From Malaciobacter mytili LMG 24559 (GTDB taxonomy: Bacteria; Campylobacterota; Campylobacteria; Campylobacterales; Arcobacteraceae), in contig NZ_CP031219.1 of NCBI RefSeq assembly GCF_003346775.1, positions 186,001-250,000 of the forward strand: a DNA stretch of 64,000 nucleotides. Direction: 5' to 3'. The translations under genes were made by a program, and so were the position numbers. Below are positions 19,956 to 20,556 of the stretch, in pieces. The notes under the pieces were generated by a model, which ran no database searches, was not told the origin of the DNA, and saw only the letters and a list, made by a program, of their open reading frames with translations. Position 1 is the stretch's first letter, and every line of letters starts with the position of its first letter.

Positions 19956-19982
19956 CTGTATCAATCTTTTAGATTGATACAG
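19956..19982 (+). terminator. Hairpin after rhodanese lipoprotein
   Basis: Perfect 12-bp stem (CTGTATCAATCT / AGATTGATACAG) with a 3-nt loop, 5 nt past the stop. There is no good T run on either side, so it may act as an mRNA 3' end stabiliser or a weak terminator. Confidence 0.6.
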
Positions 19983-20047
19983 ATAAAATATATATAATTT
20001 ATAAAAGTAAAAATATGAGGTAACGGTATTTTTAACATAATTACTCC

Positions 20048-20332
20048 TTATTTTAAATAGGTATAAAATAAGTTAATAGCAATTAAAATTACTATTAACA
20101 TAGGAAATTTGAATGATGTAGAAATCTTTTTTATTTTATATGTTAAATATATTAAATAAAATAGATATAGATATAGTATTAACAAATATATCAAAGTTAG
20201 TTGTTTCCCAAGTGTAGAAAAATGAATAAAAAATCCAATTGCAACTATTATTGCTTCATATATTTTTAATTGTTTTATATAAAAAAAAAGATAACACTCA
20301 AGAAATTTTATTAATCCATAAATAAATATCAT
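20048..20332 (-). CDS. Small membrane protein, candidate immunity protein
   Basis: 94-aa protein with three to four hydrophobic segments spread over the whole length and a lysine-rich loop near residue 65. Its ATG at 20332 overlaps the TAA of the upstream peptide gene (TAATG), the sign of translational coupling. I see no family match. Small multi-helix membrane proteins coupled to a bacteriocin-like gene are often immunity proteins, so that is the working hypothesis, not a firm call. Confidence 0.5.
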   Translation of the reverse strand: MIFIYGLIKFLECYLFFYIKQLKIYEAIIVAIGFFIHFSTLGKQLTLIYLLILYLYLFYLIYLTYKIKKISTSFKFPMLIVILIAINLFYTYLK

Positions 20333-20518
20333 TAACAAACTTTATTAGAATGGCAACTTCCACAATTATTTCCTACAGTAGGAGCATTTGCTGTAGTAAG
20401 TCCCCAACCAAAAGCTAACGGCACAATAATTTGTATAAATTTCCCTTCAGTGTCTTTCATTTCTTTTTTATTTAATATTGAAAAATTAGCAAAGTCATTA
20501 AATACCAAATTTTTCCAT
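20332..20518 (-). CDS. Bacteriocin-like precursor peptide with offset start
   Basis: The frame ending at 20332 encodes NFSILNKKEMKDTEGKF, resembling the LNxKEMxxxxGG leader of class II bacteriocins but with GK for GG. A hydrophobic core and a cysteine-rich tail (NNCGSCHSNKVC) follow. The only good start, ATG at 20518 six nt after AAGGAG, is one base out of frame and hits a stop after six codons; losing one A from the A5 run at 20510-20514 would give one continuous 61-aa peptide. It may be a true frameshift, a sequencing error, or use of a weak TTG start. No processing transporter is visible here. Confidence 0.45.
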
Positions 20519-20556
20519 ATTAAACTCCTTAGTATAATATTAATAATTAAAATCAT

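Follow-up and report, generated by a model that had tools for sequence, protein, structure and literature searches.

The nearest described system to the peptide locus analysed here is the nap island of Neisseria, which encodes the NapABC peptides with a GG leader, the C39 peptidase NapP, the FapF homologue NapF and the immunity-like protein NapI (PMC11798529). Its authors link the island to autolysis and saw no competitors killed; they propose that the peptides are cleaved in the periplasm, with NapH perhaps moving them across the inner membrane (PMC11798529). In the Fap system of Pseudomonas, FapD and FapF serve amyloid subunits, and the target of FapD was left open (PMC5557850).

The present locus lies in a stretch of 64,000 nucleotides from Malaciobacter mytili LMG 24559 (the window), and all features of its cassette are read from the minus strand. 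A perfect Shine-Dalgarno sequence AAGGAG (20525-20530) stands 6 bases ahead of an ATG (20518-20516), which reads MEKFGI-stop (20498-20518) and is out of the peptide frame. The peptide frame itself, WKNLVFNDFANFSILNKKEMKDTEGKFIQIIVPLAFGWGLTTANAPTVGNNCGSCHSNKVC (20335-20517), is offset by one base from the ATG at 20518 and has no proper start: its in-frame ATGs are limited to one at 20556, far upstream and with no ribosome site, and one at 20460, which is the M of the EMK motif in the leader. Translated along the open frame, which extends to 20332, the peptide reads ...LVFNDFANFSILNKKEMKDTEGKFIQIIVPLAFGWGLTTANAPTVGNNCGSCHSNKVC. It comprises a leader segment LNKKEMKDTEGK (20440-20475) and a core FIQIIVPLAFGWGLTTANAPTVGNNCGSCHSNKVC (20335-20439), the tail of which carries three cysteines, including a CXXCH motif (CGSCH). 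The stop codon of the peptide overlaps the ATG (20332) of the next gene in the sequence TAATG, and this gene encodes an intact, small polytopic membrane protein of 94 amino acids (20048-20332), probably an immunity protein. The first-pass annotation had described a start signal one base off the peptide frame, a three-cysteine tail and a following gene that begins on the peptide stop, and all three descriptions stand. Directly after the membrane-protein gene, a 25-codon ORF with its own AAGGAG (19961-20038) ends inside the terminator of the opposite gene and is possibly a truncated third gene of the cassette. It shows no significant similarity, and its comparison with the start of the ChaN-like gene that accompanies some relatives of the membrane protein gave a result no better than shuffles. 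No notable target duplication was seen around the cassette, a simple promoter scan did not rise above shuffles and no Rfam element was found. Neither the peptide nor the membrane protein gave a meaningful match in Pfam or NCBIfam.

The very low G+C content of the cassette (about 20% versus about 29% in the surrounding DNA), the lack of a proper start in the peptide frame and the absence of the cassette at this position in the five congeners would all suit open frames that arose by chance in AT-rich intergenic DNA. Against this, both ORFs have homologues in the same order in another genus of the Arcobacteraceae (genome G062). There, the peptide is matched with E 6.9e-7 (the one clear match among 104 genomes of the family), and 9 bases after it a membrane protein begins that is about 51% identical to that of the window. 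Over 33 codons, the window and G062 peptides differ with a dN of 0.25 and a dS of 1.61, and only the peptide frame is open, the other two being broken by stops. Because the G062 match, the partner of the same family and the frame-specific dN/dS concur, the peptide and the membrane protein are, judged by comparative evidence, a real and formerly constrained pair. Given this frame-specific constraint and the membership of the peptide in a profile family, we regard a chance origin as vanishingly improbable and, in our judgement, the conserved pair already refutes it. The G062 cassette (L011 1354-2279) is itself enclosed by 161-base direct repeats that are 96% alike. The repeats combine the closing part of a regulator gene with the opening part of the gene after it, which is unusual as a mark of insertion, and here too the peptide frame is shifted by one base from the copied ATG. 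Weak tblastn matches at L005, L009 and L013-L016 proved on reading to be cytochromes, antisense frames or other proteins, and searches for plasmid and viral-contig matches returned none.

The homologues that we cite for the peptide frame are those of G062 and G049, together with the profile families A1 and A3. When profile A1, made from three sequences, was searched against 399 genomes of the order, about a dozen of them gave convincing matches, and the window peptide matches family profile A3 with E 9.9e-10, a profile of which it is itself one row. Full-length members mostly count 80-135 residues and are composed of a Sec-type signal (judged by eye), a stretch resembling SKADSxFLF, the leader and a short core. 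In intact relatives, 31-95 residues stand ahead of the leader, the Sec-type signal included, and the mature peptide would mostly be 20-46 residues long if cleavage takes place after the leader. Among 47 precursors, the leader has L at position -12 (n = 46), E at -8 (n = 47), M or L at -7 (n = 46), T at -4 (n = 43), G at -2 (n = 46) and E at -1 (n = 39). The search pattern had itself specified E at -8 and the residue classes at -12, -7 and -2, but it left T at -4 and E at -1 free. The resulting plan, L(-12)..E(-8)M(-7)..T(-4).G(-2)E(-1), has the spacing of double-glycine leaders with Glu replacing the last Gly. The window leader fits at L-12, E-8, M-7, T-4 and G-2, and the K that it carries at -1 occurs in two of the 47 relatives. 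By this consensus, the leader-like segment that had been noticed earlier is a true relative of double-glycine-type leaders. The spacing (L-12, E-8, M/L-7, G-2), the short hydrophobic cores and the adjoining small membrane protein are shared with class II microcins and with those class II bacteriocins that have double-glycine leaders. Unlike these, the family has no C39 ABC exporter beside its genes, carries a Sec-type signal ahead of the leader and mostly has Glu at -1.

The window core belongs to a subtype, here called NAP, that consists of a hydrophobic stretch, the residues NAP and a polar tail, and that also occurs at L047, L048, L049, L050, L056, L059, L078, L080 and L082. Most peptides of this subtype are directly followed by a small polytopic membrane protein (L049 is an exception), in agreement with the bacteriocin-like family that was originally proposed. 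The window membrane protein shows only a resemblance to the partners of these more distant NAP peptides. Its own subtype is present in four of the 399 genomes of the order, and a PF03412 search found a free-standing C39 peptidase in none of the four carriers; weak matches in G016, G018, G035 and G051 were set aside as noise. In two genomes, G019 (L167 5526-8690) and G036 (L168 3719-6890), a relative of the membrane protein is flanked on one side by the gene of a TonB receptor and on the other by that of a ChaN-like lipoprotein (so named by resemblance, not by a family match), and no peptide is present in this operon. A degraded second copy of the membrane-protein gene lies downstream in G019. 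Compared between the two genomes, the membrane gene has a dN close to its dS, whereas the genes beside it are under constraint, although the numbers are small. This neighbourhood and the CGSCH in the window tail open the alternative that the membrane protein is part of a metal or haem uptake system, with the peptide as an accessory or, through its CXXCH, as a metal-binding component. We judge this improbable: cysteines are no constant feature of the family (34 of the 47 cores contain none), NAP peptides elsewhere adjoin small membrane proteins where there are no iron genes, and the window copy has no such neighbours. It may be conjectured that an immunity gene carried in the receptor operon would make sense if the peptide in question made use of this receptor.

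Near the peptide, many loci of intact relatives encode a free-standing C39 peptidase that itself bears a signal sequence and that matches the NCBIfam profile C39_FapD with E 1e-24 (under the curated cut-off) and PF03412 over the cut-off. In the alignment of these free-standing peptidases, the Cys, His and Asp presumed to be catalytic never vary. An outer-membrane protein adjoins the peptidase and carries PF13505 in two of the three proteins scanned; its AlphaFold model is a barrel of about 12 strands (mean pLDDT 86.4), and the structures that it matches best in the PDB are without exception FapF chains (E 3e-12, TM about 0.7). About 35 such loci came up in a scan of named genomes, and together they hold 36 leader-bearing peptides; among their carriers are Helicobacter, Sulfurovum, Thiovulum and an Arcobacter MAG. 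The first-pass annotation had expected export by an ABC transporter with a C39 peptidase domain. The intact relatives point to another route, as they combine a Sec-type signal with a free-standing, presumably periplasmic C39 peptidase and a FapF-like barrel.

A different reading is that this machinery exports not a bacteriocin but a structural, amyloid-like peptide or a signalling one. In its favour, the peptidase and the channel have their nearest counterparts in FapD and FapF, the amyloid-secretion proteins of Pseudomonas (PMC5557850), and the nap peptides act in autolysis (PMC11798529). The relatives share with Fap a FapD-related periplasmic C39 peptidase and a barrel whose best structural match is FapF. 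Their cargo, however, appears to consist of short leader peptides beside small membrane proteins instead of amyloid-repeat subunits, and their barrel model does not have the long N-terminal coiled coil. No FapB or FapC amyloid-repeat subunits were recognised by eye among the ORFs of the loci that were read. The cores are short, very diverse and often several per locus, and a GxxxG motif occurs in 23 of the 47 cores versus about 16 expected from shuffles. We therefore consider an amyloid-like or signalling function unlikely and favour a bacteriocin-like one.

Further components recur among these loci. Those of the Helicobacter type hold many peptides followed by an exported, barrel-like protein of about 240-270 residues, in place of a small membrane protein (L055 8027-8782, L061 5924-7705, L078 7109-7816, L082 7474-8220 and L103 369-2485), and this protein carries an N-terminal cysteine pair. 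Several loci (L072 2211-2696, L071 200-682, L049 7126-7608 and L048 8377-8607) share an exported protein of some 160 residues (KLNxPVVK...IEEYN), which is conserved and has no family match. Precursors of the same plan, with a signal and a leader resembling LSxxEMxxxxGE, were seen at L106, L108, L109, L114, L115 and L133, in loci with FapD-like C39 peptidases from a Neisseriaceae MAG, Betaproteobacteria, an Omnitrophota MAG and others.

Measured against these intact members, the window copy is incomplete. Nothing is left of its signal-peptide part; the ribosome site and the ATG lie right against the equivalent of the FLF stretch, out of frame. The original suggestion of a one-base shift at the start holds in so far as the ATG is indeed off by one base, and a sequencing or strain-specific error may be present at this point. 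As an account of the defect, however, a one-base error is too mild: since the Sec signal of intact relatives is absent as well, the defect exceeds a single dropped base. Similarly, the proposed comparison with relatives did bring up intact members with an uninterrupted frame, but the 31-95 residues that these carry ahead of the leader are missing from the window copy. A second orphan shows the same pattern, for in G062 everything before EMK is gone and the membrane ORF is kept. In both orphans, the membrane protein is intact and the peptide gene has lost its N-terminus. Neither a free-standing C39 peptidase nor a FapF-like barrel was found in the window genome, and the search for further peptides of this family in it gave none. 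No credible copy of the peptide was found in the five other genomes of the genus, where the DNA downstream of rplT holds other genes and no cassette; in two of them (G001 and G002), a rhodanese-type gene follows at this site, with a different small gene in between.

It could nevertheless be argued that the locus is a working producer, in which a leader-plus-core frame with no Sec signal is started despite the frame problem (through a sequence error, frameshifting or reinitiation) and exported by an ABC transporter with a C39 domain. The leader is intact, the overlapping stops and starts would permit reinitiation, and PF03412 does match three ABC proteins of 709-732 residues in the window genome. 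The C39-like domains of all three, however, do not have the catalytic Cys-Gly, His and Asp in the alignment, so that the catalytically competent C39 ABC transporter typical of class II microcin systems was not found in this genome. The earlier proposal had named the lack of a processing transporter as grounds for giving up its reading, and for this genome that is the outcome. In addition, the Sec signal and the periplasmic peptidase of the relatives are both missing here, and the other orphan (G062) is truncated too. Programmed frameshifting was considered and rejected, as only an A5 run is present and the Sec signal would still be missing. Altogether, a working producer seems very unlikely. 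From the loss of the Sec signal and start frame and the absence of peptidase and channel, it follows that no export of a mature peptide is to be expected; the window genome probably yields no mature form of it, and the locus is a relic with a probable orphan immunity gene.

We consider the cassette to be, more probably than not, a horizontally acquired and now orphaned, decayed part of a Nap-like bacteriocin system, of which the membrane protein has been kept as an orphan immunity protein. Two points speak against this reading: autolysis and no killing was seen with the nap island, its nearest characterised counterpart (PMC11798529), and the relatives of the membrane protein in G019 and G036 have no peptide beside them, so that its role may be a different one. 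With the Nap-like family, the window shares the leader spacing, homology at the sequence level and an adjoining small membrane protein of the immunity type. It has neither the N-terminal Sec signal nor, elsewhere in the genome, the free-standing C39 peptidase and the FapF-like barrel, and because the Sec signal is missing we regard it as a degenerate remnant and not as a working member. Antibacterial action, immunity, the cleavage site, the secretion path and selection for retention are what we infer from these comparisons. In intact relatives, the precursor would cross the inner membrane via Sec, after which a periplasmic, free-standing FapD-like C39 peptidase would cleave it behind the leader ...EMxxTxGE. 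The mature peptide would then leave the cell through the FapF-like barrel, and the small co-encoded membrane protein would protect the producer. As for the window, what has been retained is most likely the intact gene of the membrane protein, which would confer orphan immunity against the peptides of relatives. One may speculate that its translation could stay coupled by reinitiation through the overlapping stops and starts.

The parallels between this system and the nap island comprise small bacteriocin-like peptides, a double-glycine-type leader, a C39 peptidase that is thought to be periplasmic, an outer-membrane channel of the FapF type, an immunity-like gene and horizontal acquisition. 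The differences are that the Campylobacterota precursors carry a clear Sec-type signal, that their leader mostly ends in GE and not in GG, and that the window keeps only a peptide remnant and the membrane protein. As far as resemblance between sequences can tell, the peptide system is also wider than Campylobacterota. No description of a Campylobacterota version was found in the open-access papers searched, and the export system seems to be undescribed in this phylum. On balance, we lean towards the view that Campylobacterota (many Helicobacter, relatives of Sulfurovum and some Arcobacteraceae) possess an undescribed Nap-type system with Sec export, a FapD-like peptidase, a FapF-like channel and an EMxxTxGE recognition rule, and that the window holds the orphan immunity cassette of a bystander, one that is passed among Arcobacteraceae unaccompanied by the toxin machinery.

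Such a system would bear on two points in the known ones. The 47 precursors, most of which come from loci with the protease, share one leader that mostly ends in GE, which would provide FapD-like C39 peptidases with a target and a recognition rule. The Sec-type signal of the Campylobacterota precursors would likewise be informative about the inner-membrane step of the nap island. If this view is true, Campylobacterota would gain a class of secreted peptides, and orphan genes of the immunity type, such as the one in the window, would be a possible sign of ongoing competition.
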